Source: Microcaldota archaeon (GTDB lineage: Archaea > Micrarchaeota > Micrarchaeia > Anstonellales > Anstonellaceae). From it: a DNA stretch of 53,334 bases. Under the pieces are notes generated by a model that saw nothing but the letters and a program-made list of their open reading frames with translations, did no database searches and was not told where the DNA came from. The DNA lies in the NCBI GenBank assembly GCA_026413965.1, contig JAOAJY010000001.1, positions 1 through 53,334 of the forward strand, read 5' to 3'. A program made the position numbers and the translations under genes. Below, one piece after another: positions 11,019-53,334 of the stretch (the stretch's first letter is position 1; the number at the start of each line of letters is the position of its first letter).

Positions 11019-12069
11019 AGCCCAGCATCTTGGCGAAATTCCTTCTCTGCCTGCTTTTCCATTTTCCTGAGTGGTAAGCATAGCTTGCCAAAAGGGGCAA
11101 AACCGAGGTGGCTTCTGCAAAGACCATCTGCTCAAAAGAGGTATCCACCTTGCCCCAGGAGCTTGCCTCTTTCAGGGTGGAGGAGGAGCATGCCCCGTCG
11201 CGCACATCTGCGACTGTTATCTGTATGGCGTATTTGTGCATCGGGACTTCCTTGCCCAAAATCTCAGCGCAAACCACGGTGTCTTGTGCAAAATTCTTGG
11301 GCACGCCTCCGCCAATCATAAGAAGCCCTGAGGAGGGGGATGCCATCTTTATCTTGGTGAGCTCGTAGAAATCCTTCACTGAGTCTATTGAGACGTGGCT
11401 TTCAGGGTGGTTGTGCTGGTGGAGAACCAGCCCGAAGCCTGCGGAGGAGTCGGAGAACGCTGGGCAGAAAATCGGAACGTTGTTCTCATATGCGATTTGC
11501 ACAAGAGACTCCTTCTTTTTTGCCCCTCCATTTTTCAAGTACTTCCCCATTTCCCAGATGAACTCCCTTGAGGAGTAAGGCTTTGGAGGAAGAGAATCTG
11601 CGATTTTGGCTATTGTCCTGTCGCAGACCTGAAGCTGCTCCTCATCAATGAAGGTGTCATATATCCTGTCTATGTAAAGCTTCCTTAGCAGGCGGTCGTC
11701 TACGTTTGGGGTGCCTATGTAGTGCTTGAAGCCAAGCGCCTCAAAAAAATCCATATCCACTATGGATGCGCCAGTTGCCACCACAGCATCAACCATGTTG
11801 TACTTGACCAAATCAGAGTATATCTTCATGCATCCTCCTGCAGATGTGCTGCCAGCAAGCGTCAGGATTATTGCGCAGCCCTTGTCCGAAAGCATCAAGT
11901 CAAATATTTTCGCTGCTCTTGCCAAATCCCTGCTGGTGAAAGACATCTTCTCCATGGCTTTTATTATCGGGGTGGCGTCAAACGAGGCGATGTCTATGTG
12001 CTCAATCTCCTCTTTGAGAAAATCTTTTTTCGCAGGCAAGAAACCTACCTCCGTGAATGCAATCCACAA
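11011..12069 (-). CDS. dys: Deoxyhypusine synthase
   Basis: GASIVDMDFFEALG, FCPAFSDSSAGFGL and SSWGKVDTSFEQMVFAEATSVLPLL. Confidence 0.9.
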   Translation of the reverse strand: MWIAFTEVGFLPAKKDFLKEEIEHIDIASFDATPIIKAMEKMSFTSRDLARAAKIFDLMLSDKGCAIILTLAGSTSAGGCMKIYSDLVKYNMVDAVVATGASIVDMDFFEALGFKHYIGTPNVDDRLLRKLYIDRIYDTFIDEEQLQVCDRTIAKIADSLPPKPYSSREFIWEMGKYLKNGGAKKKESLVQIAYENNVPIFCPAFSDSSAGFGLVLHQHNHPESHVSIDSVKDFYELTKIKMASPSSGLLMIGGGVPKNFAQDTVVCAEILGKEVPMHKYAIQITVADVRDGACSSSTLKEASSWGKVDTSFEQMVFAEATSVLPLLASYAYHSGKWKSRQRRNFAKMLGSK

Positions 12070-14568: not shown

Positions 14569-16191
14569 ATGTTCCGCTTTGCCCCTGCCTTTTTCCTTAT
14601 TGCAATCCTGCCTATCTCATTTTGCACAGTGATTTGGAGCCAGTCTGCCTCAGATGCCATAACCGGAAAGCCTGCTTTGTTCTCTGACAAGCTCGTCTTT
14701 ACCTCAGCAGACGGCAAGATTTATGCCCTTTCTGCCCAGTCAGGGGCAATCGCTTGGAGCTATGATTTGGGGGAAAGGGCGGCTTTCCCTGCGCATAAAT
14801 TGGATGAGTCAAAAATTGCTGCAGTTGGAGTAAAAGGCAAGCTTGCGGTGATAGGCGTAGCAGATGGCGTGCCTATCGCTACGGCCAGCTTGCTCTCAGC
14901 GCCAAAGGCATTCGCAGCAGGCGACGGGAAGGCGTTTGTGGCAACAAATGACAGCCTGATTGCCTACACCCCACAGGGCAAAAGAGCATGGAACCTGACC
15001 AAAGAGGGCATAGTTGGCCAGATGGGAATAGGCGAAGGCAGCCTCTATTTTGTTTCATCTGGCAGGCTTTATTCAGCCTCAACAGGAAGCGGAGCAATCA
15101 AATGGTCGGCTCCTGCCCATCAAACCTTCCTTTCTAGGCCAGCGGAATATGCAGGCGCAGTTTATGTTGGCGGAACTGATGGGCATCTTTATTCTTTTGA
15201 TGCTTCCACAGGAAGCCTGAGGTGGAGATTCAAGACTGGTGGATGGGTGGCATCTTCCCCTCTTCCAACCGCTGATGGAGTATATTTTGTATCAAATGAT
15301 GGAAACGCTTATGCAGTAAGCCAAAGCGGGCAGCTTCTGTTCAAAACCCCCATTAAGCCTTCGTGGGCGCAGCCAGCAGTGTACACAGGCAAAGGCAGGA
15401 GGACGGTGGTTTTCGCAGACAGCGAGGGAAAGCTTTATGGGGCGGATGCCTCAACCGGAGAGCTGATTTGGTCTTTCTTCTCCTATGGAACTCCTGAGGA
15501 CCTTGCCATGCACTCAGGAAACATTGCTTTTGGAACCAGCAAGGGCAAAATGTATCTTCTTTCTCCTTCTGCGATGTGCAGCTTCAGCTATCCTGAGAAT
15601 TTGGGGATTGTTGGCGGATGGGTTGTGGAGGTGGAAGGAGCCGCAAGCGCGGATGCTGGAATTGAGCAGGTGGAAGTCCGTGCTTCTTCCCCAGGAAAGC
15701 AAGGCTCTTGGGAAGCTGCATTTGGCAAGGAGAGCTGGCACATGCCTATTGACTTCGCCCGATTTGAAAGCGGACCGGTCAAGCTGGAATGCAGGGTGCG
15801 GGACTCTGGCGGCAGGACAGACACCCGAGATTTCTCATCCATCACATTGATAAAAGACGACAACGCGCCGCTTTTGAAAATGTTTGCGGAATATCCAAGC
15901 GAAGTGGAAGCAAATGAGGAGTTTTTTTTCTCTGCAAAAGATGAGAGAGGAAAGCACTTGAGGAATGTGAAGCTTGTGGTTGGCGGCATAGAAAGCGTTG
16001 GGGAAAGCCCGTTCACTATAAAGCTTGCATCCCCAGGAAAGGTTGCCATAACTGCTGAAAAAGCTGGTTTTGAGCCAATCGCAGCCGATGTGAAAGTCAG
16101 AGGAGGAACTGATTACGCCACGATTATCCTAGGGGCTGCGCTAGTTGTAGCCATTGGCTACTTCCTTGCCAAAAAAATGAAAAAGAAATAA
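14569..16191 (+). CDS. Secreted, membrane-anchored PQQ-type beta-propeller protein
   Basis: Signal peptide; repeated LYSASTGSGAIKW / LYSFDASTGSLRW / LYGADASTGELIW blades; C-terminal TM with KKMKKK. Confidence 0.85.
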   Translation: MFRFAPAFFLIAILPISFCTVIWSQSASDAITGKPALFSDKLVFTSADGKIYALSAQSGAIAWSYDLGERAAFPAHKLDESKIAAVGVKGKLAVIGVADGVPIATASLLSAPKAFAAGDGKAFVATNDSLIAYTPQGKRAWNLTKEGIVGQMGIGEGSLYFVSSGRLYSASTGSGAIKWSAPAHQTFLSRPAEYAGAVYVGGTDGHLYSFDASTGSLRWRFKTGGWVASSPLPTADGVYFVSNDGNAYAVSQSGQLLFKTPIKPSWAQPAVYTGKGRRTVVFADSEGKLYGADASTGELIWSFFSYGTPEDLAMHSGNIAFGTSKGKMYLLSPSAMCSFSYPENLGIVGGWVVEVEGAASADAGIEQVEVRASSPGKQGSWEAAFGKESWHMPIDFARFESGPVKLECRVRDSGGRTDTRDFSSITLIKDDNAPLLKMFAEYPSEVEANEEFFFSAKDERGKHLRNVKLVVGGIESVGESPFTIKLASPGKVAITAEKAGFEPIAADVKVRGGTDYATIILGAALVVAIGYFLAKKMKKK

Positions 16192-22520: not shown

Positions 22521-23330
22521 ATGGTTAATATCAAATACTATTCTTATGGTTGCGCTGGGCTTGGGATATTGGGGGTGATGGGCACATACATCAGCGCAGG
22601 CAACCCCATACTCCTTTTTGTTTCCAGCTTCATGTGCCTGGTTGGGGCGGCAGGCGCAGTGGCATTCTACAAATACGGCTACTTGCTTGTCCCTCTGCTG
22701 ACTCACCGGGCCAACATAGTGCAGATTATTGAGGGGGGATGGGAGATACCGCCCAGCAACGATGTGGTGGTCAAGAATGTCGGCGGGGTTTATTACGCCT
22801 CAAAATACCTCGGTGTGAGGATTTTTGAGTCAGCCTCAGAGAAGTCTGCGGAAGAAAACATGGTTTATTCCGAGTATTTTGAGAGGGCGATTTCCTCAGT
22901 AAAATATGTGACAAAGTTTGCGATAATGGTCTATATGAAAGACATAACAGAATACAGGAACAGGATAGAGACCAAGCATGCAGAGGCTCAGCTTAGGCTT
23001 GCCCGGGAGCGCGACAAGCCCGAGCCTGATGTTTTGAAGCTTGACCGGTATGAGAAAGAGGTGGCGTCTTGGGAAAACCAGATAAACAAGCTGACTAGGG
23101 GCATAAAGCCCATGGGCTTGGTATCATATGTGATGACTACGGCTGTGGGCGTGAGCAAAGAGGCGGCAATTGCGGCAGCCACTGCGCAGGCAAACGAGCT
23201 GAAAGCCACCATATCAAATGCCTTGAATGTCCAGGTGGAAATCCTGGCTGGGGATGAGATGCTGAGGTGCTTCCAGTGGGAAGTGATGATTCCGCCCACC
23301 CCTGCTGAGCTTGAGCAGGAGCTTTTGTGA
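22521..23330 (+). CDS. Membrane protein: two N-terminal TMs (VirB3-like) plus VirB4 N-domain-like soluble region
   Basis: Two TMs in the first ~65 aa, then alpha/beta region with long helix, immediately 5' to and overlapping a VirB4-like ATPase. Confidence 0.55.
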   Translation: MVNIKYYSYGCAGLGILGVMGTYISAGNPILLFVSSFMCLVGAAGAVAFYKYGYLLVPLLTHRANIVQIIEGGWEIPPSNDVVVKNVGGVYYASKYLGVRIFESASEKSAEENMVYSEYFERAISSVKYVTKFAIMVYMKDITEYRNRIETKHAEAQLRLARERDKPEPDVLKLDRYEKEVASWENQINKLTRGIKPMGLVSYVMTTAVGVSKEAAIAAATAQANELKATISNALNVQVEILAGDEMLRCFQWEVMIPPTPAELEQELL

Positions 23331-24930
23331 AGAGGTTTTTATGGGAAGACTGGTGCTTTCAGACATTGACAATGTGGATGTGGGCAAGCGGAATTTCTTC
23401 GTGCGCCCGCCAGAGCCTCCTGAAGAGGTCTTGATGAGCGACCCCACCAACTCCATCTATATTGGCAAGACCAAAATTTTCCATGTCCCTTTTTACTGGA
23501 CATTCCAGAAAACCACCAACCCGCACATCTGCGTGGTCGGAATAACCGGATCAGGAAAGTCCTATTTTGTCAAGACTTTCCTGACCAGAGCAAGCTTTGT
23601 ATGGGGGACGAATGCCTTCATAATAGACTGGGCAGGGGAATACAAAGACTGGGTAAAGCAGACAGGCGGGAAGGTCATCTCTCTTGGGAAAGGCGCGGCA
23701 ATCAACCTTCTTGACACAGCAGGCATGAAGCCAAATGACAGGATAAAGCAGGTCATGAGGACTCTGGATCTGCTCACAGACGTAAGCCGCTATCCTGAGC
23801 AGCGCAGGCTCACCGAGCTTGCAATAGAGAAAGCCTATGTGAATGCGAAATTCAAGCTGGACTCCAAAATGCAGGTTGATGGGCTAGGCAGGCCCTTGCG
23901 CCCTCCTACGCTGCGCGATGTTCAGAAGATATTGGAGGACATGAGCGAGGCAGGAACTTACGAATTTCCAGCTGAGCTTGAGAATGCGATTTACAGGATA
24001 AGGCAATTCACAAGGGAAGGCGAGGACTTTTTCGCCCAGCAATCCACCATAGACTTGGAAAAGCTCACCAAGATAGGGCTGGTTGACTTGGACCTTTCTG
24101 GCTTGCCGGATGAGACATTCAGGGGGCTTGCCGCCCTGTCAATGCTCCAATTCATAAAGGAGAAGATGCGCGAGGAAGGATGGTCGCCAACCAAGGGCTT
24201 GAAGCTGATGGTGGTCTTGGACGAGGCCTGGAAGATTGCGAAAGAGGAGAACTCCGATGCTGTGATGATTGTGCGCGAAGGAAGGAAATACCAATTCGGG
24301 CTGATTGTAGCCTCACAAAACCCCACAGACATATCCGAAGCCATATTCTCAAATGTGGGAACAACATTCATATTGCGGGTCAAATTTGAAAGGTATCTGG
24401 ACTATCTCCAATCCACCCTGAATTTCTCAGATTATCTGCGGGGAGAGATAGCCAAGATGGGAGTGGGGCAGGCAGCAGTCAATATGGCATTCCAGACGCA
24501 GGTGAATTACCCTGAGACGTTCCTGCTTGAGAAGATAGACGGCGAAGAGCCCATGCAGGAGTTCTTCTTAGACCTTGACCGCGTCCTGACGCGCGAAGAG
24601 ATGGCGATGGAGGGGGCTCAAAAGACAGTCTCCTTTGAGAAAGACGAGCTGAAAAAGAAGCTCCGGACTTACGGGATGGGCGAAGAGCAGGCCGACGAGA
24701 TTGCCCTGCTTTTCAGCAAGAAAGGCAGGCGCATTGAGATTGCATCGTTTGTGGTTCTTTTGTCCCGCTACGGAATTGCGCGCAACAACATCTCAAGCTT
24801 CCTCAAAGAGATTGGGCTGGAAGACAGCGTGGTGGTCAGCGTGCTTGCAAATGCTGATGAGCTTGAGATAAAGCTGGGGAATGATGACATAACAGAGCAC
24901 ATACTGAAAGACACTGAGAAGGCTGAGTGA
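23311..24930 (+). CDS. VirB4/TraC-like (HerA-FtsK superfamily) ATPase
   Basis: Walker A GITGSGKSYFVKT, Walker B LMVVLDEAWKI (DEAW of VirB4/TraC), ASQNPTDI; likely start MGRLVLSDIDNVDVG at 23341. Confidence 0.85.
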   Translation: MSRSFCEEVFMGRLVLSDIDNVDVGKRNFFVRPPEPPEEVLMSDPTNSIYIGKTKIFHVPFYWTFQKTTNPHICVVGITGSGKSYFVKTFLTRASFVWGTNAFIIDWAGEYKDWVKQTGGKVISLGKGAAINLLDTAGMKPNDRIKQVMRTLDLLTDVSRYPEQRRLTELAIEKAYVNAKFKLDSKMQVDGLGRPLRPPTLRDVQKILEDMSEAGTYEFPAELENAIYRIRQFTREGEDFFAQQSTIDLEKLTKIGLVDLDLSGLPDETFRGLAALSMLQFIKEKMREEGWSPTKGLKLMVVLDEAWKIAKEENSDAVMIVREGRKYQFGLIVASQNPTDISEAIFSNVGTTFILRVKFERYLDYLQSTLNFSDYLRGEIAKMGVGQAAVNMAFQTQVNYPETFLLEKIDGEEPMQEFFLDLDRVLTREEMAMEGAQKTVSFEKDELKKKLRTYGMGEEQADEIALLFSKKGRRIEIASFVVLLSRYGIARNNISSFLKEIGLEDSVVVSVLANADELEIKLGNDDITEHILKDTEKAE

Positions 24931-24931
24931 T

Positions 24932-25228
24932 ATGGCAAAGACGATATTTTTCACGAAAGAGGAGCTGCGCAGGAAGCTTAGGCTCTACGGGCTGGATGAG
25001 GTGCGCATAGCAGAGATAACCAGCGTTTTTGACAAAAACAACAGGCACATAGATGTTGTGTCATTTGTCATAATGCTTGAAAGGTACGGGATACTGCGGA
25101 CGGACATATCGTCATTTTTGCACGATATTGGGATAGACGAAAGCACCATGATAAACATATTCTCCAAGGCAGATTTCACCAGGCTGGGGATGGGAAACCG
25201 CGAGATCACCCAAGTGGTTCTCGCTTAG
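24932..25228 (+). CDS. Small protein paralogous to the C-terminal domain of the preceding ATPase
   Basis: ELRRKLRLYGLDEVRIAEITSVFDKNNRHIDVVSFVIMLERYGILRTDISSFLHDIGIDES aligns to ELKKKLRTYGMGEEQADEIALLFSKKGRRIEIASFVVLLSRYGIARNNISSFLKEIGLEDS. Confidence 0.9.
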   Translation: MAKTIFFTKEELRRKLRLYGLDEVRIAEITSVFDKNNRHIDVVSFVIMLERYGILRTDISSFLHDIGIDESTMINIFSKADFTRLGMGNREITQVVLA

Positions 25229-25239
25229 GGGGGTAGAAT

Positions 25240-25692
25240 ATGGCAAAGGTGTGCATAATATGCGAAAAGGAGGCCGCGCAAGGGCTTGTGGTTGAGGACG
25301 ACGCAGTCATAATCGCCATACGCAAAGTAAAAAACATGCTTGGGGTAGCGAAAAACAACCAGCTTATGGTCTGCGACCTTTGCGCTGAAAGCTACAAGCG
25401 CAAAAGGGAAAGCTATGAAAGGAACATTGTCATACACACAATAATCGCCGCTCTTGTGCTGCTGGCTTTCATACTTCTGCCGCTGTTCACCTCTGGCTTT
25501 TCCATCTGGTCGCTGGTGATGGGCGTGGTGCTTGCAGGAGTGATTATGGGCTTTTCCTTATTCTCGCATGTCCCAAAAGCATCACAAAAAAAGAATGAAG
25601 AGCCGCCCGCAAAAGAATCTGCTGGCAAGCCTGCGGAAAAGCCTTCAAAAGAAAGGAAGCCGAAGAAAAAAAGAAAATCTAAAGGTGGATGA
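25240..25692 (+). CDS. Zinc-ribbon membrane protein with basic C-terminal tail
   Basis: CIIC...CDLC pair, two TM helices, Lys/Pro/Glu-rich C-terminus. Confidence 0.75.
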   Translation: MAKVCIICEKEAAQGLVVEDDAVIIAIRKVKNMLGVAKNNQLMVCDLCAESYKRKRESYERNIVIHTIIAALVLLAFILLPLFTSGFSIWSLVMGVVLAGVIMGFSLFSHVPKASQKKNEEPPAKESAGKPAEKPSKERKPKKKRKSKGG

Positions 25693-26474
25693 GATTGCTT
25701 GATTTGGCAAAGCCTGAGCAAAAACAGAATCCTTCTGGCTCTCCGGCAGCCCAGCCTGCAGCCCAGGCTTCGCCCACTGTCAGCGGATTCAGGGTGCAGG
25801 CAAAGAGAACAAAAAGCGCCAAAGAGCTGTCAAACCGGTTCGCGGAGATATCTTTCCTTGAGATGATGATTGAAGGGGAAACACTTTCTGTTCTGAATGT
25901 GGAGTCGCGCGATTTGCGCAAAGAGCCTGCCTTGTTCTCAATCATCCGCTTCAAGCCCGATGTGATTGAATGCGCATACACCTGCCTTGCCAACATGAGC
26001 CCGAAAAAAAGGCAGCTGGAAGTGCTGAGGCACTTTCTCAACATGCTTACACTGGCTGAAGACTGCTATGATGTCCAAATGAAGCAGATATACCAGCTTG
26101 TTGAAAGCTCGTTTGCGGAAATGACCGAGTACGTGTCAACAGACTATGACAAGCTTTATTCGCTTTATGACAACCTCAAAACAGAGCTGAATTCCGCCCA
26201 GAAGAAATTGAAGGAGCTGGGCGAGGCGAACTCTGTCCTCTCCAAGGAGAATTATGAGCTTAAAAGCAGGAACGATGAGCTGACTTTGCGCTTGCGCTCC
26301 CTTGAGACGCTTTCCGACAGCGTCTTGCAGCTGAAAATACAGGAGTGGCTCTCAGAGCACAACGGAGAGATAAACATATCTGATTTCTCCAAAGTCTACA
26401 ATGTCCCTGAGATGCGGGTGGAGCAGATGCTCAACAAAATGGTCACCGAGGGCTACTTGGAGACCAAGGGCTGA
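25689..26474 (+). CDS. Coiled-coil protein with C-terminal winged-helix-like domain
   Basis: ATGA overlap with upstream gene; heptad-rich middle; C-term INISDFSKVYNVPEMRVEQMLNKMVTEGYLETKG. Confidence 0.7.
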   Translation: MRLLDLAKPEQKQNPSGSPAAQPAAQASPTVSGFRVQAKRTKSAKELSNRFAEISFLEMMIEGETLSVLNVESRDLRKEPALFSIIRFKPDVIECAYTCLANMSPKKRQLEVLRHFLNMLTLAEDCYDVQMKQIYQLVESSFAEMTEYVSTDYDKLYSLYDNLKTELNSAQKKLKELGEANSVLSKENYELKSRNDELTLRLRSLETLSDSVLQLKIQEWLSEHNGEINISDFSKVYNVPEMRVEQMLNKMVTEGYLETKG

Positions 26475-29134
26475 TGGTTCCGATGGAAGAGGAGAAAAAG
26501 GGAAGCCCTGAGCTTTCCAAGCTTCGGATAACCAAGAAAGCCTATGTCTTTGATGTCCGAAAAAAATATTCCATCAGCCGCAACTTTGTGATAAAAAAGG
26601 AGGCGCAAACCCCTGCTGAAAGCATAAAGGAGAAGCTGAAGAGCCTTTTCAAAAAAAAGGAAGGCGAAAAGGAGGAGAAGCCTAAAGCCCAGCCTGCCCC
26701 TCAAAAAGCATTTGGGATAAATCCGGTGATTGCCGGAATACTTGTGGTGCTTGCGATTGTTGTTGGCAGCTTTCTTTTTGTGGTCTGGAGGATGCAGCAG
26801 GAGCCAGAGGAGCCTTCTGCGCCTGCCCAAAAAGGCTACTTTGTTGGCAAGGCAGACTACGAAATAAAGCAAGCAGAGATTTTGACCTCCCCGTCAGGCG
26901 AGGATCTTGGGAGAGTCGCATATTATAGGATAGGCTACACCGCAGAAAACTTAAGCCAGCTGAAATTCAGCCTAAAGCTTTATTCCCAAAAGCCCACCAC
27001 GCAAGTTTTCCTTTTGGAATACGCAAAGGATGGGGCAGACACTTATCCGATATTCAGAAAGCACCTGCTTGAAAATCTCAAAAGCCGCGGGATTCCCATA
27101 AGCGAGATAACCATAGAGAAGCTGGCAGAGCTTCCTGGAGGGGCGACCGTGATAGTGCCCACTGGCTACTTCCCAAAGGAGCTTTTCGGCAAAGACAGCC
27201 ATTTCAGCTTTGAGGACTTGCTTGAGCGTGGCAACAACATAGTATATATAGGATTCCAGGTTGACAGGGTGCTCAACCGGGACGGCCTGACTGAGCCTGT
27301 CGCCTCCACGAACCTCCAATTCAGCAAAGCCAAACTCTCCTCCACGGACGGATTTAGGCTTTTTGACGCGCAATATTCTGCCTCAGGAACCGGAAACCTA
27401 TACTCTGCTGGCCAGATTTACGGCTCTGTTAGCGTGGTTAAGTCCTCAAAAGGAGGAGGTGCGCTGGTCATACTTCCCCAAAGCCTTGACGGAGGCTGGC
27501 GCGGGGACCAGCGAATGACCAGCGGAGAAGTTGCAGCAGGAGATATTGCCAGGCTGATTGAGGAGCAGCGATGGCTCTTGCCAATAGCCTCGGCAGAGGC
27601 TTCTGCTGAGCTTGGCGGCGAAGAAAAGCAGGCAGGCAGCCTTGAGCTTTATAGCTCAGCATTCACAGCAAACCGAGCCTACGCACAAATTTCAGCTGAA
27701 GCTGAGGATACTGGGGGGGCAAAAACAAGGAAAGTGGAGGTCGTGGAGCTGGAAAAAGCTCCGAAAGGGGAGATGCAGCCAAGGGAGCCTGTGGCAGTGC
27801 CCTACTACCTTTCTGGGCAGCTGACTCGCCTGAACATCCAGCTGAGGGAAGACAGCTCCAAGCCTGTGAAGCTTTTTGTAAAGCTTTACAGGAACGGCTC
27901 TTTGGCTCAGGAAGAAGAGCTGGAGCTTGGGATGACCAATCCAACAGCAGAAAAGCCCAAAGACATACCCGTGAATGTTGAGCCAGGCACCTATCTTGTC
28001 CGGGTGGAAAGCCGGGAAGGTAAAGTGTACGCCCAAACTTTTGTCCGAGTGACAGGGCTGGAAGCTGGCATCAGGTCAGCCAACTGGCAGAACCGGACTT
28101 TTGTCTTTTACTTTTCGGCAGGCAATCAGTCAGTCAACCCAAGGACTGTTGAAATATCCATGGATGGCAAGAACTGGAAAAAATTCACTTCCTCACAATA
28201 CCAATTTTCTGGAGGGGAGACCCAAATTGCCTATAGCTATCCAGAAAGCATAACCCCAGGCAACCACACTTTCCAGATAATCATAGGAAGCTGGAGCAAG
28301 CAGATAGTCCAAGAATACCGCCCTACGAGGTATCCTTGGGACAACCCATTATTTGTGATTCTTGGGGTTCTTTCAATCCTTATATTTGCGGTCGGGATGT
28401 TTTTGCGCAGGCCCGAGACTTTGAAATATGGGCTGGATGTGCCTGACTTTCCTCCGATTTCTGCGATAAAGATACCTGTCAAAAGGGAAGCAGTCATGCA
28501 AATATTCAACGATGTGAACGCAAGCTATTCGTGGCAATACATGCCTCTCCGCCCAGAGGAGATAAAAAACGGCTTCCGGCGGCTAACCTACAACGGCAAG
28601 CCCATACTTATAGGGGACTTCAATTTGGAGAGGGTGCTTTTCAAGCTGAAAGAGGAGGGGAAAGTGAAGGAGGAGCTGGGATACTATGGGCTGAGCCAAT
28701 GGGAATCCCAAAGCAAGCACACCATAAGATATCTTGCGATATACCGGATAATGAGGAACGTCTTTGTCAACAGTGCAGTGCGCTTCTCCAAGCTTGACGC
28801 CATTCCTGAATGCGATGTGAAAGCAATTGTGGGCAAGGAGGAGATATACTTCCACATAATGGAGGAGCCTTTCTCTGCTGAGGACAAAACATATCCAAAT
28901 GGAGCAGTCTGCAGGGGGGCGGAAACCATAGTCCATCGGGCGCTTGCCACTGCCAAAAAAGGAACCACAATAATTGTATTCAGGACTGAGGAGGAGAGGG
29001 ATTCATTCTTTGACAGCCTCGCCGCGCCTTCCAAGCTGGCGGTGGCTTTGAAGATGGAGATAAGCAACCGGAACATTTTCCTGCTTCCTGTCAAGAACGC
29101 AATTTCGGCATTCTTGAAAGGCGTGGTCAAATAA
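26474..29134 (+). CDS. Large bitopic/bipartite membrane protein (886 aa), unknown family
   Basis: TM near N-terminus, large beta-rich extracellular region, second TM (PLFVILGVLSILIFAVGMFL), C-terminal cytoplasmic domain; overlaps upstream stop codon. Confidence 0.7.
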   Translation: MVPMEEEKKGSPELSKLRITKKAYVFDVRKKYSISRNFVIKKEAQTPAESIKEKLKSLFKKKEGEKEEKPKAQPAPQKAFGINPVIAGILVVLAIVVGSFLFVVWRMQQEPEEPSAPAQKGYFVGKADYEIKQAEILTSPSGEDLGRVAYYRIGYTAENLSQLKFSLKLYSQKPTTQVFLLEYAKDGADTYPIFRKHLLENLKSRGIPISEITIEKLAELPGGATVIVPTGYFPKELFGKDSHFSFEDLLERGNNIVYIGFQVDRVLNRDGLTEPVASTNLQFSKAKLSSTDGFRLFDAQYSASGTGNLYSAGQIYGSVSVVKSSKGGGALVILPQSLDGGWRGDQRMTSGEVAAGDIARLIEEQRWLLPIASAEASAELGGEEKQAGSLELYSSAFTANRAYAQISAEAEDTGGAKTRKVEVVELEKAPKGEMQPREPVAVPYYLSGQLTRLNIQLREDSSKPVKLFVKLYRNGSLAQEEELELGMTNPTAEKPKDIPVNVEPGTYLVRVESREGKVYAQTFVRVTGLEAGIRSANWQNRTFVFYFSAGNQSVNPRTVEISMDGKNWKKFTSSQYQFSGGETQIAYSYPESITPGNHTFQIIIGSWSKQIVQEYRPTRYPWDNPLFVILGVLSILIFAVGMFLRRPETLKYGLDVPDFPPISAIKIPVKREAVMQIFNDVNASYSWQYMPLRPEEIKNGFRRLTYNGKPILIGDFNLERVLFKLKEEGKVKEELGYYGLSQWESQSKHTIRYLAIYRIMRNVFVNSAVRFSKLDAIPECDVKAIVGKEEIYFHIMEEPFSAEDKTYPNGAVCRGAETIVHRALATAKKGTTIIVFRTEEERDSFFDSLAAPSKLAVALKMEISNRNIFLLPVKNAISAFLKGVVK

Positions 29135-38685: not shown

Positions 38686-40782
38686 ATGAGGACTGTTGCG
38701 CTTATTTGCGTGATGCTTTCATTGTCTTTTGCTGCAGAATTTTCGCTTGAGCCTTACCTTTTCGCATCAGAAAAGAACGCAAGCATAAACTACACAGACT
38801 TTTCATACAACAACAGCACAGCGAAAATAGTCCGGATAAATGGAGAGGAAGCCTTGCTTTTGATTGACGGCAAGCTTGCCACAAGCACGCAGGATATTGC
38901 CGCAGCCATATCTTACTATTACCAGCAGAACTTTTACCCCTCAAAGCAAGACATGGAGGCGCTTTTGGGGTTTGCCGAGGCTTTCAACAAAAGCAGGAAT
39001 GCAAAAACCAAATTCGGCCCTGCTGAAAAGGTTTGCTATGAGCAGGGAACCCTTCTTTCCCACAAGCCGTGCAGCGACATGAAAAGCTGCACGATGACTG
39101 CCACGCTCATCTGCACCCTTTCCGGAGCAGACGGCTGCATAGTTGATGTTCTTGCAGGCCACATACTATCATACTCAAAATCCATAGAAAAGCTCAACAC
39201 TGCCTATGCCAAGTTCCAGTCTGCCCACTCAGGATTTTCTGCAGGGACGGTGGCAGATTCGCTTAATTCCATGGAATCTGCATTGGATGAGATGAAAAGC
39301 GCTGCTGATGAGGTCAAAAAAAGCAAGCTGATATTCCCTGAGACATACTCTTGCGCAGACTGCATAGGAATCTGCCCTGAGCCCAAATTCGACTACTCTG
39401 CCATAAGCTCAGGCAAGGCAAAGATAGCTGAGCTTAGGTCCAAGACCGCGCCTTTTTCCAGCCTCAACAAGGTATCTGCAAAAATAGCGCTTTCTACCCA
39501 GGAAAGGATAGCCTACAGGGAAGGCGAGGAGAAGGCGAAGATATATGAGCCGAAATACAGCGCAGCAAAGGGCAAATACGCCTCCCTCAAGGAGAAAGTG
39601 CTTGCCGCAAGGGCATTGGTGGCAGACTCCGGATTTGTTTCAGCAGCAGACTCCTTCCTTTCAAAAGAGGAGGAGCTTGAAAAGCGGGTGGCAAAAAGGC
39701 AGTTTGACGGCTTTGAGCCGCTTTTGTCTGCATACACTGATGAAGCAGCCAAGCTTTCAGGCATGATAAACAACTCCACTTCTGCATACCACTCTGCCCT
39801 TGAGGCGCAGGACAGCGCAGGGGACTTGCTGCTTCAGGCTTTGTGGAAAACCAATCCTCTTGATGGCAAGATGGCAGAAAAATACAACGGCCTTGCGGAG
39901 AAGAAAAACAAGATTGATGAAAAGCTCAAGCCCCCAATGACTTCTGAGAAATACGCTGAAATTGAGGCAGAATACGGCGCTTTTTCAAGCGAGGTGAGGG
40001 CTTACCTTGCAAGCTCCTCAAGCAGCCCGCTTTTGCCAATATTTGAGCTTGGGAACAGCTTTGGCAGAAGCTCGATTGACAGCACAGTCTCTCTTGCCTC
40101 AAGCATGGCTCCCATATCCTTCAAGACGCGCCAAAGCATGGCAGCCTACGTCCTTCCGGTTGCGCTGGGCGTGATTGACCTTTCAATCCTTGCGCTTGCG
40201 CTTTTGGCATTCGCAGGCATATTCCACCACTTCCACGGGATGTTCAAAAGCAAGCTGGCGATATCAGGCTGGGTGCTGGCTTTTGTGGCATTCGCATTTA
40301 TTCTCCTTGCCGGCTCAATAGGGTTTTACGGAATTGTCCTTTCAAGCGAAAAATATGCGTCTTTTTCCGATTTTTTCAATTCGCTCAAGCACTCCGACAA
40401 AGCAGCTGTGGTGGTCCATCAGACAGGAGTGGGCTCAGAAACTGCGAAAGCCATGGACAAATGCGCCTCTCAGATAGAATCCCAGCTTGCGATTTTGGGC
40501 AAGAAAACCATAAAGTACTACATAGACGGAAGCAGGTGCAGGTACCTTCTGCCCATGAACTCCACCAACTCCACAAACCTGACCTACAAGGAAGTCGCCG
40601 ATCAGACTGCTGAAAAGTGCCTGGACAGCTTGCCAGATGTCCCTGTATTTGACTTGAAGTACTCCGAGGCAAACCAGCCTCCCATATTCACCACTGTGGT
40701 GGCAAAGCAGGCAATAATAAAAGGCAACCAGAACTATTACAGCAAAAAGCCCATGTGCGACATAGCCAACATACTAAATTAA
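38686..40782 (+). CDS. Membrane protein with signal peptide, coiled-coil ectodomain and C-terminal TMs
   Basis: 698 aa; N-terminal signal; TMs at YVLPVALGVIDLSILALALLAFAGIF and ISGWVLAFVAFAFILLAGSIGFYGIV. Confidence 0.75.
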   Translation: MRTVALICVMLSLSFAAEFSLEPYLFASEKNASINYTDFSYNNSTAKIVRINGEEALLLIDGKLATSTQDIAAAISYYYQQNFYPSKQDMEALLGFAEAFNKSRNAKTKFGPAEKVCYEQGTLLSHKPCSDMKSCTMTATLICTLSGADGCIVDVLAGHILSYSKSIEKLNTAYAKFQSAHSGFSAGTVADSLNSMESALDEMKSAADEVKKSKLIFPETYSCADCIGICPEPKFDYSAISSGKAKIAELRSKTAPFSSLNKVSAKIALSTQERIAYREGEEKAKIYEPKYSAAKGKYASLKEKVLAARALVADSGFVSAADSFLSKEEELEKRVAKRQFDGFEPLLSAYTDEAAKLSGMINNSTSAYHSALEAQDSAGDLLLQALWKTNPLDGKMAEKYNGLAEKKNKIDEKLKPPMTSEKYAEIEAEYGAFSSEVRAYLASSSSSPLLPIFELGNSFGRSSIDSTVSLASSMAPISFKTRQSMAAYVLPVALGVIDLSILALALLAFAGIFHHFHGMFKSKLAISGWVLAFVAFAFILLAGSIGFYGIVLSSEKYASFSDFFNSLKHSDKAAVVVHQTGVGSETAKAMDKCASQIESQLAILGKKTIKYYIDGSRCRYLLPMNSTNSTNLTYKEVADQTAEKCLDSLPDVPVFDLKYSEANQPPIFTTVVAKQAIIKGNQNYYSKKPMCDIANILN

Positions 40783-47372: not shown

Positions 47373-48008
47373 TCACCAGTAGCAAGATGAGCCCCCTGTG
47401 CAGACTCCGCATGGAATGACAAGCGGGGTTTGTCCAACAAATCTTCTAGACAGCACGGAATTTCCTTTTATTATATCATAATCAAAGCCGAAGTCCTGAA
47501 CAGACACGACACCTTCGCCATCAGTGCTACAGACAGTATCTGTGGCAAACATCTGATTGGGAGGCAACTCGGCAGAGCCGGAAGAACCCGGAACAAAAGC
47601 TATAGAGTATTGGCAGTTGCTTCCGTAGCTTCCAAAGCATATTTCTCTTCCTGCTGGTATGTAAATAGAAGAGATGGATTGCGTGATTCCGTTTGCAGAC
47701 CTGTAGGTGTTAAGAACGTTGTTGCCTGCAACTATGGCGCGCAGCCTTATCGGGTCTGCCCCAGTATTTTTTACCCTAAGGTAAGGATAGTGCGAAGTGC
47801 TTGATGGATTGCGGTAAATGGATGATGCGACAATTGCAAGAGGAGAGGCGCTTGACCAGTAAGACTGGCTTTGCGAAAGCTTCACGTCACTAGTCCTACC
47901 AAAAACATCTCCAAGGAGAGCAATTCCAACCAAAGCAACTACAAGAATGACTGCAAGCAAAACAAGATATTCGGTTGCTCCCTGACCGAGAAGCTTTCTG
48001 CTGCTCAA
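47373..48008 (-). CDS. Class III signal peptide-containing pilin-like protein
   Basis: SRKLLGQGATEYLVLLAVILVVALVGIALLG. Confidence 0.85.
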   Translation of the reverse strand: MSSRKLLGQGATEYLVLLAVILVVALVGIALLGDVFGRTSDVKLSQSQSYWSSASPLAIVASSIYRNPSSTSHYPYLRVKNTGADPIRLRAIVAGNNVLNTYRSANGITQSISSIYIPAGREICFGSYGSNCQYSIAFVPGSSGSAELPPNQMFATDTVCSTDGEGVVSVQDFGFDYDIIKGNSVLSRRFVGQTPLVIPCGVCTGGSSCYW

Positions 48009-51181: not shown

Positions 51182-51865
51182 TTATGGACGGGCGGAAATG
51201 ACGCTGCCTAAAGACATCAAGAGAACCGATAGGAAGAAGAAAAAAAGCAAAATCACCAGTATCGCAAAGATTATTAACGGCGCCACCACGACAAATGCTG
51301 CTTTGAGGGAAGAAAGCTGGTGAGCTTCCTTAATCAGCTTGTATTGGCTGTACATGGAATAGACGCTTATCAACAAAATTGGTATGTTGAAGATTATGCC
51401 AATTAGAGGCAGAAGAGCTAGGACTTGGAAAGGCAGCTGCAGCAAAGCCGAGCCGCCAATAAGCAAAGAAAGAACATATGTTTGCTGGGAAAATTTTCCT
51501 TTGCCACCCACAATCTTTGCAAAAGCAAATAGTATTGCCGATAGGATAAACCCCACGACAAAGACGGATACGGGGAATAAGACAACTGAGGTCAACGCGG
51601 ATAGGGCGCCACTCATATCGCCACTAAGAGCAGAGATGGTAAAGCCTGCTACGCCTATGGCAGCACCGGTAAGCAATCCATAAGCAACAAAATTTTTGGC
51701 TGCGCCCAAGGCAGTAGCATTTTCTGCCTCTATTTTGAATACTGCCTCAGGCCTGAAAAATGCGGTTATCCATTTTGTGGTTGTGGATGAAAAAGGAAAA
51801 CCGTTGGCCACATTCAAGAACCTGCCTTCAATATTCCCTGGCGCACCATATCTGTTTTCTGTCAT
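51182..51865 (-). CDS. Yip1-domain-like membrane protein
   Basis: Start at MTENRYGAPG; about 5 TMs with Yip1-type pattern (PFQVLALLPLIGIIFNIPILLISVYSMYSQY). Confidence 0.65.
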   Translation of the reverse strand: MTENRYGAPGNIEGRFLNVANGFPFSSTTTKWITAFFRPEAVFKIEAENATALGAAKNFVAYGLLTGAAIGVAGFTISALSGDMSGALSALTSVVLFPVSVFVVGFILSAILFAFAKIVGGKGKFSQQTYVLSLLIGGSALLQLPFQVLALLPLIGIIFNIPILLISVYSMYSQYKLIKEAHQLSSLKAAFVVVAPLIIFAILVILLFFFFLSVLLMSLGSVISARP

Positions 51866-51870
51866 CCAAT

Positions 51871-52005
51871 CTACCTCCCATTCAGTTTCGCATAGCATTT
51901 TCCGCAGTAGCTATGCACAAATCCAGAGGAATCTATGCTCTGCCTCTGGCTGAAGCGGGTAAGCTCAGCTCGGCAAATTTCGCACAACAAATAGTCATTA
52001 TACAT
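51871..52005 (-). CDS. 44-aa zinc-ribbon protein (below the ORF-track cutoff)
   Basis: Translation MYNDYLLCEICRAELTRFSQRQSIDSSGFVHSYCGKCYAKLNGR*; two CxxC pairs; stop overlaps the SD (gggaggt) of the Yip1-like gene. Confidence 0.75.
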   Translation of the reverse strand: MYNDYLLCEICRAELTRFSQRQSIDSSGFVHSYCGKCYAKLNGR

Positions 52006-52076: not shown

Positions 52077-52180
52077 GCTGGGGTCGCATAATCCGGTATT
52101 GCGGCAGGTTGCTAACCTGTTGAAGGGAAACCTTCGTGTGAGTTCAATTTCCAGATGGAGAGCAAATCTCACCCCCGGCG
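52077..52180 (+). tRNA. tRNA-Ser(GCU) with apparent 18-nt intron in the T-loop
   Basis: Acceptor GCTGGGG/CCCCGGC, D-stem GCA/TGC, anticodon arm GCAGG-TTGCTAA-CCTGT, variable arm GAAGG-GAAA-CCTTC, T-stem GTGAG/CTCAC, discriminator G; T-loop region is 25 nt instead of 7; no encoded CCA. Confidence 0.88.
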
Positions 52181-52271
52181 CTTTTTTTTGGGAAAGCCAG
52201 CATAAATATTTTAAATACAACACGACAATACGAATGGCAGAGCCTTAGAGGCTCGGAATTGGAGGGATGAA

Positions 52272-52601
52272 ATGAAAAGGATTCTATTGGCTTTGCTTGC
52301 TATAAGCGCTCTTTTGGCAGCTGCTTCCTCGCCTCTTACAAGAGTGAGTGCGGCTGTTTCTAACCTTTGCAGCGAGCTTAAGGGATTGCTTCCCGTTGTC
52401 TCAATGCTTATGGTGGTGGTTGCGGGAGTGATTTATGCGGCAGGGCAGATAATGGGCGCTGAGACTCGCGCAAGGGCGAATGTTTGGGCAACTGCCGCAT
52501 TGGTTGGGGCATTGATTGGAGTGCTGATATATGCTGTTGCGCCTCCTGTCCTGCAAACAATATACAGCGGAAGTTCGCAGGGAAGCGACTTTAACTGCTG
52601 A
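52272..52601 (+). CDS. VirB2/TrbC-like mini-pilin, copy 1
   Basis: Signal peptide then two hydrophobic helices separated by charged loop GAETRARANVW; conserved LC..LK.LLPV. Confidence 0.7.
   Translation: MKRILLALLAISALLAAASSPLTRVSAAVSNLCSELKGLLPVVSMLMVVVAGVIYAAGQIMGAETRARANVWATAALVGALIGVLIYAVAPPVLQTIYSGSSQGSDFNC
52425..52553 (+). repeat. 129-nt exact direct repeat, unit 1
   Basis: ggagtgatttatgcggcagggcag...gttgcgcctcctgtcctg, identical to units 2 and 3. Confidence 0.95.
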
Positions 52602-52613
52602 TGGGGGAGAAAT

Positions 52614-52967
52614 ATGAAAAAATTGGCATTGACTTTGGCTCTTGTTGCTGCTGCCGCATTTGCCACATCCCCTCCTCTTGGGACAGGTGGCAGCGTACGG
52701 ATGGCAATTCAAGACCTCTGCTGCGAGCTTAAAGGATTGCTTCCAGTGGCATCCATGCTCATGATAGTGGTTGCGGGAGTGATTTATGCGGCAGGGCAGA
52801 TAATGGGCGCTGAGACTCGCGCAAGGGCGAATGTTTGGGCAACTGCCGCATTGGTTGGGGCATTGATTGGAGTGCTGATATATGCTGTTGCGCCTCCTGT
52901 CCTGGACACCATCTACTCCCAAAGCGGCACCGCAACAGGCCAAGTATCTTGCGTCTCAGCTTGCTGA
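52614..52967 (+). CDS. VirB2/TrbC-like mini-pilin, copy 2
   Basis: Same architecture; core nucleotide-identical to copy 1. Confidence 0.7.
   Translation: MKKLALTLALVAAAAFATSPPLGTGGSVRMAIQDLCCELKGLLPVASMLMIVVAGVIYAAGQIMGAETRARANVWATAALVGALIGVLIYAVAPPVLDTIYSQSGTATGQVSCVSAC
52776..52904 (+). repeat. 129-nt exact direct repeat, unit 2
   Basis: Identical to units 1 and 3. Confidence 0.95.
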
Positions 52968-53055
52968 TTTTTTTATTTTTCTTTTTTTTTATTTTAATCC
53001 ACTTTTTACCACATATTTTTTAAATTCTTCGCGCTCTAAAAATACAGGTGGAAAA

Positions 53056-53334
53056 ATGAGGAAGGCAGCAGCATTCATCCTTCTGCTTTCTTTTCTTGCG
53101 CATGCCTCTTCACCTTTAAGCACGGTGAAGCTTGCGGCAAGCATGCTGTGCCATGACGCAAAAAGCCTGCTTCCAGTGGTCTGCATGCTTATGACTGTTT
53201 TTGCCGGAGTGATTTATGCGGCAGGGCAGATAATGGGCGCTGAGACTCGCGCAAGGGCGAATGTTTGGGCAACTGCCGCATTGGTTGGGGCATTGATTGG
53301 AGTGCTGATATATGCTGTTGCGCCTCCTGTCCTG
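53056..53334 (+). CDS. VirB2/TrbC-like mini-pilin, copy 3 (truncated by window end)
   Basis: MRKAAAFILLLSFLAHASSPLSTVKLAASMLCHDAKSLLPVVCMLMTVFAGVIYAAGQIMGAETRARANVWATAALVGALIGVLIYAVAPPVL...; own TATA-like ttttttaaattc upstream. Confidence 0.7.
   Translation, partial: MRKAAAFILLLSFLAHASSPLSTVKLAASMLCHDAKSLLPVVCMLMTVFAGVIYAAGQIMGAETRARANVWATAALVGALIGVLIYAVAPPVL
53206..53334 (+). repeat. 129-nt exact direct repeat, unit 3
   Basis: Identical to units 1 and 2; ends exactly at the window edge. Confidence 0.95.

Follow-up and report, generated by a model that had tools for sequence, protein, structure and literature searches.

The three consecutive genes that close the window (the whole stretch of DNA analysed, 53,334 nucleotides, corresponding to bases 1-53334 of the 219-kb contig C11 in a Candidatus Micrarchaeota assembly of 771 kb, 28 contigs and 87% completeness) likely encode alternative major subunits of a VirB2-type pilus, as part of a T4SS-like machine that is chromosomal and class-wide in Micrarchaeia; the assembly of such a pilus is inferred. 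Three steps of this model are shown, namely the profile-level homology of the proteins to VirB2, the co-occurrence of their genes with VirB6-like and VirB4 genes together with linkage to them in distant relatives, and the identity of a central core within arrays and not between species. The array and its immediate surroundings contain the following features:

51182..51898 (-): Yip1-domain membrane protein flanking the array, a synteny marker for which no role is claimed
52202..52217 (+): TATA-like element 5' of copy 1, identified by eye, an inference
52272..52601 (+): VirB2-type pilin copy 1, 109 aa, with signal peptide, helix 1, GAETRARANVW loop, helix 2 and a tail ending in Cys
52425..52553 (+): identical 129-nt core of copy 1
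52614..52967 (+): VirB2-type pilin copy 2, 117 aa, starting 12 nt past copy 1
52776..52904 (+): identical 129-nt core of copy 2
52968..52999 (+): T-rich stretch 3' of copy 2, a possible archaeal terminator, read by eye, an inference
53056..53334 (+): VirB2-type pilin copy 3, incomplete (93 residues visible) because a 100-N scaffold gap follows at the window end
53206..53334 (+): identical 129-nt core of copy 3, running up to the gap

The longest block identical across the three copies measured exactly 129 nt, and copies 1 and 2 alone shared 138 nt. Over the N-terminal residues 1-40, the identity between copies was 39-54% for DNA and 26-44% for protein. In the 43-codon core, all 41 of the 41 degenerate codons were identical in each of the three pairs, and permutation of the codon order reproduced the identical run in 0 of 2000 trials, which indicates that it is not due to chance. 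A preliminary description of this region had reported three open reading frames sharing a 129-nt core and differing at their ends, and this held when ORF calls and a block search were carried out. It has to be corrected in two respects. The scaffold gap lies inside the array (C11:53335-53434) and cuts copy 3, whose 129 nt stop at the contig break, so that its C-terminus is not contained in the window; beyond the gap, C11 restarts within the same core and continues into another tail, TTIFNTQEGEFVDIASACG, with genes for PAC2, superoxide dismutase and further housekeeping functions 3' of it. The array contains at least three copies: three if the tail found after the gap belongs to copy 3, otherwise more. 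The pairing of heads and tails across the gap is uncertain. Moreover, two dispersed paralogues, 74-77% identical to the array at the DNA level, are found elsewhere in the genome at C21:87640, which carries a 62-residue Cys-rich tail, and at C11:190301.

Since a terminator may follow copy 2, copy 3 may carry its own promoter, although this is an inference. A PAC2 gene was found beside pilin genes at 13 loci of different genomes (the L005 array and 12 others), and the position of the array is therefore conserved while its copy number varies; Yip1-domain homologues also lie near the arrays of some relatives. In a distant genome, two tandem pilin genes (L207:14580-14888 and 15157-15465) are 99.7% identical in DNA and represent a very recent duplication. 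Upstream of the array, a tRNA-Ser(GCT) gene (52077-52181, +) was missed by ARAGORN in the native sequence and was recognised once an 18-nt T-loop insert had been removed, which suggests a non-canonical archaeal tRNA intron. Elsewhere in the window, an S-layer-like protein (PF05124; 35800-38553) is followed by a secreted 698-aa protein without any Pfam match (38686-40782).

When the two complete copies in the window were compared with the Pfam TrbC/VirB2 family, E values of 2.8e-5 and 8.1e-5 were obtained, with 24.7 and 23.2 bits, respectively, against a gathering cut-off of 27.9. Among 84 family members, the two Pfam families most commonly matched were T4SS_pilin (PF18895; 42/84) and TrbC (PF04956; 25/84); an E value of 8e-6 or better was reached by two members for the former and by one for the latter (best values 1.5e-6 and 2.5e-6). 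In NCBIfam, the VirB2 pilin TrwL model (NF033899) was matched by 24 of the 84 members (best E 1.7e-5), with the next model at 4/84. Most of these profile matches fall under the curated cut-offs, few members being near or above them, and weak matches to many membrane families were also seen, as is usual for short hydrophobic proteins. An hhalign comparison with TrwL of R388 (three TrwL sequences) gave an E value of 1.8e-4 and a probability of 49% over 68 columns, in the right register, since the pairing ran from the signal peptide through helix 1 and the loop into the first part of helix 2. The topology consists of a signal peptide, two hydrophobic helices and the short charged loop GAETRARANVW, the cleavage site having been read by eye without a predictor; in agreement, the AlphaFold monomer (pLDDT 90) shows helices at residues 2-17, 21-60 and 63-98, that is, a signal helix followed by a two-helix hairpin.

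Other searches were negative. Foldseek with the pilin monomer gave no significant match in PDB or BFVD and no pilin among the 35 PDB matches returned, a bare two-helix hairpin offering low power in such a search. When the profile of the pilin alignment was searched against PDB sequences, the best E value was 0.16, for an unrelated K+ ATPase, with TrwL at 0.24. No pilin match was obtained in PHROGs, and no pilin relative was found in the viral contigs searched, so that there is no sign of virus-borne pilins. A relation between the pilin CedA1 and the channel CedA is reported for the Ced system; no similarity between our pilins and the VirB6-like proteins was found by profile-profile comparison.

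Taken on the sequence evidence alone, remote homology makes VirB2-type pilins the likely and not yet firm identity of these proteins; the claim becomes firm because the genomic context described below is added to the profile evidence. The VirB2-like identity proposed in the preliminary description is hence supported by two profile libraries, by the weak profile-profile match with TrwL and, most strongly, by the gene order of six distant genomes. The same description would have taken profile matches with an unrelated two-TM family as a refutation, and this outcome did not arise. Its suggested link to the Ced/Ted pilins was not confirmed at the level of specific orthology, and no direct sequence comparison with CedA1 or TedC was made. 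An archaeal type IV pilin was considered and rejected, as the class III signal peptide is absent and the proteins have an AxA-type signal (by eye) and two helices. This genome probably encodes type IV pili as well, given that the ORF at 47373-48008 (-) carries the class III signal motif QGATEYL.

Each of the 84 full-length members has a Cys close to where helix 1 begins. The tail contains at least one more, exactly one in 72 members, often as the last residue. In copy 1 the cysteines are Cys33 and Cys109, in copy 2 Cys36, 37, 113 and 117; both positions were also recognised by eye in four members of the distant families. A disulfide linking the tail to helix 1 would be the natural reading of this universal pair. 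The idea of a Cys pair is therefore stronger than the preliminary description had stated, the disulfide itself being inferred. Several members carry long Cys-rich tails, from 47 to more than 400 residues (L006:7623-8102; L079, 5806-6108 (-); L090:5321-5827 (-); L092, ORF at 11545), the one of L090 lying 2 kb from a VirB4 operon. These members may be tip subunits or adhesins.

The pilin family is present in 59 of 59 sampled order-level genomes and in 259 of 296 genomes of the phylum sample. Among the GTDB-genome relatives of the pilin-like proteins, the named ones are nearly all Candidatus Micrarchaeota MAGs, the remainder being a few archaeal MAGs and one of Ca. Iainarchaeum type. In the source genome the array lies 27 kb from an operon encoding a VirB4-like ATPase, beside PAC2 and not beside T4SS genes. 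The features of this operon are:

22521..23330 (+): VirB4N, 269 aa, with two N-terminal TM helices, the rest resembling the VirB4 N-domain
23311..24930 (+): VirB4/CedB-like ATPase
24932..25225 (+): paralogue of the ATPase C-terminal region, 98 aa, about 43% identity
25240..25692 (+): conserved protein with 2 TM helices
25689..26474 (+): conserved coiled-coil protein
26474..29134 (+): conserved large TM protein

The best NCBIfam models for the ATPase were CedB (1.4e-21) and CedD (5.5e-21), with the repair protein HerA at 1e-12; VirB4 models also scored better than the HerA repair helicase. The matches with the CedB and VirB4 models were under the equivalog cut-offs, the one with CedB reaching 77 bits with respect to a cut-off of 700. 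Of 59 relatives, 58 carry this ATPase, mostly in the form of two paralogues; the source genome has two such paralogues and no other CedB-like gene. In a set of 41 genomes picked by pilin status, it was found in 21 of 21 pilin-positive genomes as compared to 4 of 20 pilin-negative ones (Fisher 4.7e-8, uncorrected for phylogeny). The small paralogue of its C-terminal region, directly 3' of the ATPase gene, is kept in relatives. Confidence in the VirB4N model was modest (pLDDT 68); R388 T4SS entries made up 11 of the 15 PDB entries that matched it best, led by TrwK/VirB4, the best E value of 0.04 not being significant by itself.

In near-complete distant genomes the pilin gene lies about 10-14 kb from the VirB4 ATPase gene on the same strand in 7 of 9 cases. 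In each of the six distant genomes that were fetched (L203-L208), six VirB6-like genes and then two VirB4N genes stand between pilin and ATPase, and the ATPase is followed by the genes that also lie downstream of it in the window, wherever the stretch extends far enough. The VirB6-like proteins are polytopic paralogues with about 6 or more TM segments and match a profile built from the source genome and relatives with E values from 6e-8 to 3e-24. They gave no meaningful match in Pfam or NCBIfam, and the label VirB6 is inferred from topology and cluster position. Six different paralogues could form a hetero-oligomeric rather than a homo-oligomeric channel. The two adjacent VirB4-N-domain genes 5' of a single ATPase gene in L203-L208 amount to a split VirB4; CedB and CedD reportedly span different parts of the VirB4 N-domain (PMC11868833).

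In the source genome the cluster is dispersed. The ATPase part is located at 22521-29134 and the six VirB6-like genes at C26:1-7039 (L194), while the orthologue of a 243-aa membrane protein of the cluster was found on C22 (E 3e-56), adjoining an 84-aa T4SS_pilin-like ORF (L193:8660-8914). The latter does not contain the GAETRARA loop and is perhaps a second pilin type. No match to the relaxase family PF03432, the only relaxase family searched, or to the VirD4 coupling protein PF02534 was found in the 87%-complete source genome. We do not call the system a conjugation system or a member of Ced/Ted.

As regards the identical core, the same codon is used for the same core residue in 73% of cases within arrays, 51% between dispersed copies of one genome and 39% between genomes; between this array and other PAC2-linked arrays the rate is 33%, and for the N-terminal parts within arrays it is about 55%. 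Long identical runs were also observed in relatives: 141 nt (G002), 114 and 119 nt (G006), 104 nt (G035), 101 nt (G029), up to 99 nt (G008) and 87 nt (G042). A silent-codon run test gave values of 0.01 or lower for pairs in G000, G006, G008, G014, G029 and G042, and indicated little or no conversion in the arrays of G034, G037 and G028. The tracts end sharply, at positions that vary from pair to pair. In G008 different pairs share different tracts, and in G042 two copies share core and tail and not the head, as in a half-gene exchange. The nearest relative of the core is found in the same genome for 51 of 66 array copies, with respect to 30 of 60 for the N-terminal parts. It should be considered that the arrays of relatives were sampled from the best-scoring places and that the assemblies are mostly metagenome-assembled. 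Because cores match within arrays, codons differ between species, tract ends are sharp and several relatives behave alike, the identical core very likely results from homogenisation (concerted evolution) and not from nucleotide constraint. The preliminary description had proposed gene conversion confined to the core, to be checked by comparing copies across related genomes; this comparison, at codon level, supports it in this and in other genomes, several relatives showing the same pattern. Its alternative of a very recent duplication, taken alone, is contradicted by the silent differences in the ends.

In the model that we propose, the machine would consist of the pilins, six VirB6-like membrane proteins and a VirB4 split into N-domain and ATPase genes, without any relaxase or VirD4 found. 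Each preprotein would lose its signal peptide at the AxA site, and the two hydrophobic helices would form a hairpin. In solved archaeal VirB2-type pili, a two-helix subunit is packed with lipid round a lumen (PMC9905601). In VirB2-type pili the loop lines the lumen and the termini are outside. By analogy, the conserved charged loop GAETRARANVW would line the lumen, and the N-terminus and the tail would be exposed outside, stapled by a disulfide between the universal cysteines. The homogenised part (end of helix 1, loop and helix 2) would then serve for packing and as the lumen surface, and the exterior would be made up of the N-terminus and the tail, which vary. Diversification at subunit surfaces or termini had been anticipated in the preliminary description: the ends do vary, whereas their outward facing and the formation of a pilus are not shown. 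As to the origin of the array, tandem duplication would have generated the copies, and ordinary homologous recombination, as gene conversion and possibly unequal crossover, would keep the alignable core identical. Amino-acid constraint would keep the core alignable, so that conversion continues, while the ends, having lost homology, would diverge. A common packing and channel would be kept and several surfaces offered, probably for contact with different partner cells; this last step is inferred, there being no evidence on expression, filaments or partners.

Several other explanations of the identical core were weighed. That it is an artefact, produced by a collapsed, bubble-popped or mis-joined repeat in a short-read metagenome, might be suspected from the 100-N gap inside the array, from the contig break exactly at the end of the shared block and from the excess of pilin copies near contig ends (12 observed vs. 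3.6 expected, P about 4e-4). However, such an excess is expected, because identical cores break assemblies: contigs end at repeats since identical k-mers truly exist there. Furthermore, copies 1 and 2, which lie 12 nt apart and have different ends, are within one unbroken stretch, and the pattern recurs with other tract lengths and boundaries in several assemblies and, more weakly, in the 920-kb contig of G014. We therefore regard an artefact as very improbable. Recent duplication without conversion, followed by fast diversification of the ends under positive selection, finds some support in the existence of near-identical recent tandem duplicates (the 99.7% identical pair of L207). Against it, silent and replacement sites alike differ in the ends while 41 of 41 core codons are identical; positive selection would not add silent differences to the ends and none to the core, nor does this view fit the G008 pairs that share different tracts. 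It is hard to sustain. A function of the core DNA or RNA itself, as a recombination site, an overlapping antisense gene or a regulatory structure, would agree with the identity of all silent sites in this genome, but the same-codon rate between genomes is just 39% (33% vs. PAC2-linked arrays); this disagreement argues that no nucleotide element is shared, and the explanation can practically be ruled out.

Other objections concern the nature of the proteins and the role of the variants. The weak matches to many membrane families could point to another small membrane family, such as an ATP-synthase c-like proteolipid, a holin or a type IV pilin. This is again very unlikely, considering that no c-subunit and no holin match was obtained, that the cleavage motif is of the AxA type and not of the class III QGATEYL type, and that the pilin genes cluster with VirB6-like and VirB4 genes. 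As for silent donor cassettes, of the pilE/pilS type of antigenic variation, no headless copies were detected in the source genome except the gap fragment, and full-length copies carry a start and a signal peptide. A more serious rival accepts VirB2-type pilins and holds that the variants serve as subunits of one filament, under different regulation or in mixture, and not as surfaces for partner contact, conversion within a constrained family being enough to explain core identity. In its favour, every full-length copy appears intact, single copies occur in some genomes, no silent cassettes were seen and some of the long Cys-rich tails would suit a tip subunit; on the other hand, the ends, tails included, are the most variable parts in most arrays, and on balance we lean slightly away from this view. 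A bolder reading would see in the core a permanent site of crossover, by which heads and tails are reassorted and new pilus exteriors continually created round an unchanged channel. It would amount to surface variation of an archaeal partner-contact pilus on a relaxase-less T4SS-like machine with six VirB6-like channel proteins. We consider this reading improbable. Alternative major subunits of one VirB2-type pilus, with a homogenised core and free ends, remain the reading that we prefer.

Such a machine can be compared with known systems. Tandem VirB2-like arrays in very small genomes, together with VirB4 and, here by inference, VirB6 parts and without a recognised relaxase or coupling protein, are shared with the T4SS of Patescibacteria, for which 441 VirB2 arrays of 2-11 genes were described, with a mean amino-acid identity of 25% and at most 54% (PMC12102498). 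In Ca. Southlakia epibionticum the pilin series is essential, and the T4SS has no recognisable coupling and relaxase proteins (PMC10633639). In contrast to this bacterial system, for which no homogenised core is reported (PMC12102498), the micrarchaeal one is archaeal and has six VirB6-like genes, a split VirB4 and the universal Cys pair. Duplication of VirB2, VirB4 and VirB6 is also known from the Rickettsiales: Ehrlichia has 4-5 VirB2 genes, mostly in tandem, whose helices are conserved and whose ends diverge, besides two VirB4 and four tandem VirB6 paralogues (PMC7789307). However, its VirB2 paralogues are about 26% identical and its machine is that of a diderm bacterium, with VirB7-VirB10 (PMC7789307); the similarity in gene content is likely convergent.

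The Ced and Ted systems of Thermoproteota, which are reduced archaeal relatives, contain an archaeal VirB2-type pilin (CedA1/TedC), a VirB6-like channel and a VirB4-like ATPase (PMC9905601, PMC11868833); TedC has a cleaved signal peptide, and Ced has two ATPase paralogues, CedB and CedD (PMC9905601, PMC11868833). They differ in that no tandem pilin arrays are described in the relevant sections and in that the micrarchaeal ATPase is only a distant homologue, as the score of 77 bits indicates. TrwL/VirB2 of R388 has the same signal peptide, two hydrophobic helices and short charged loop, but no Cys pair, and is encoded by a single gene in a plasmid conjugation system with relaxase and coupling protein. 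While tandem VirB2 arrays were already known in Patescibacteria and Rickettsiales, no description of this system in Micrarchaeota was found in the literature searched, which left out most subscription journals and bioRxiv. Within that scope, the class-wide micrarchaeal cluster, its six VirB6-like genes, the homogenised core and the universal Cys pair are new.

Short-read assemblies tend to break or undercount arrays of this kind. The contact of DPANN archaea with partner cells, and the way in which these are exploited, are poorly understood, and the T4SS-like cluster of Micrarchaeia provides a named and testable set of genes. A parallel exists in a Patescibacterium, where a T4SS with pilin arrays is essential for epibiotic life. 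A core evolving in concert, with ends free to change, would account for several surfaces on a single channel.
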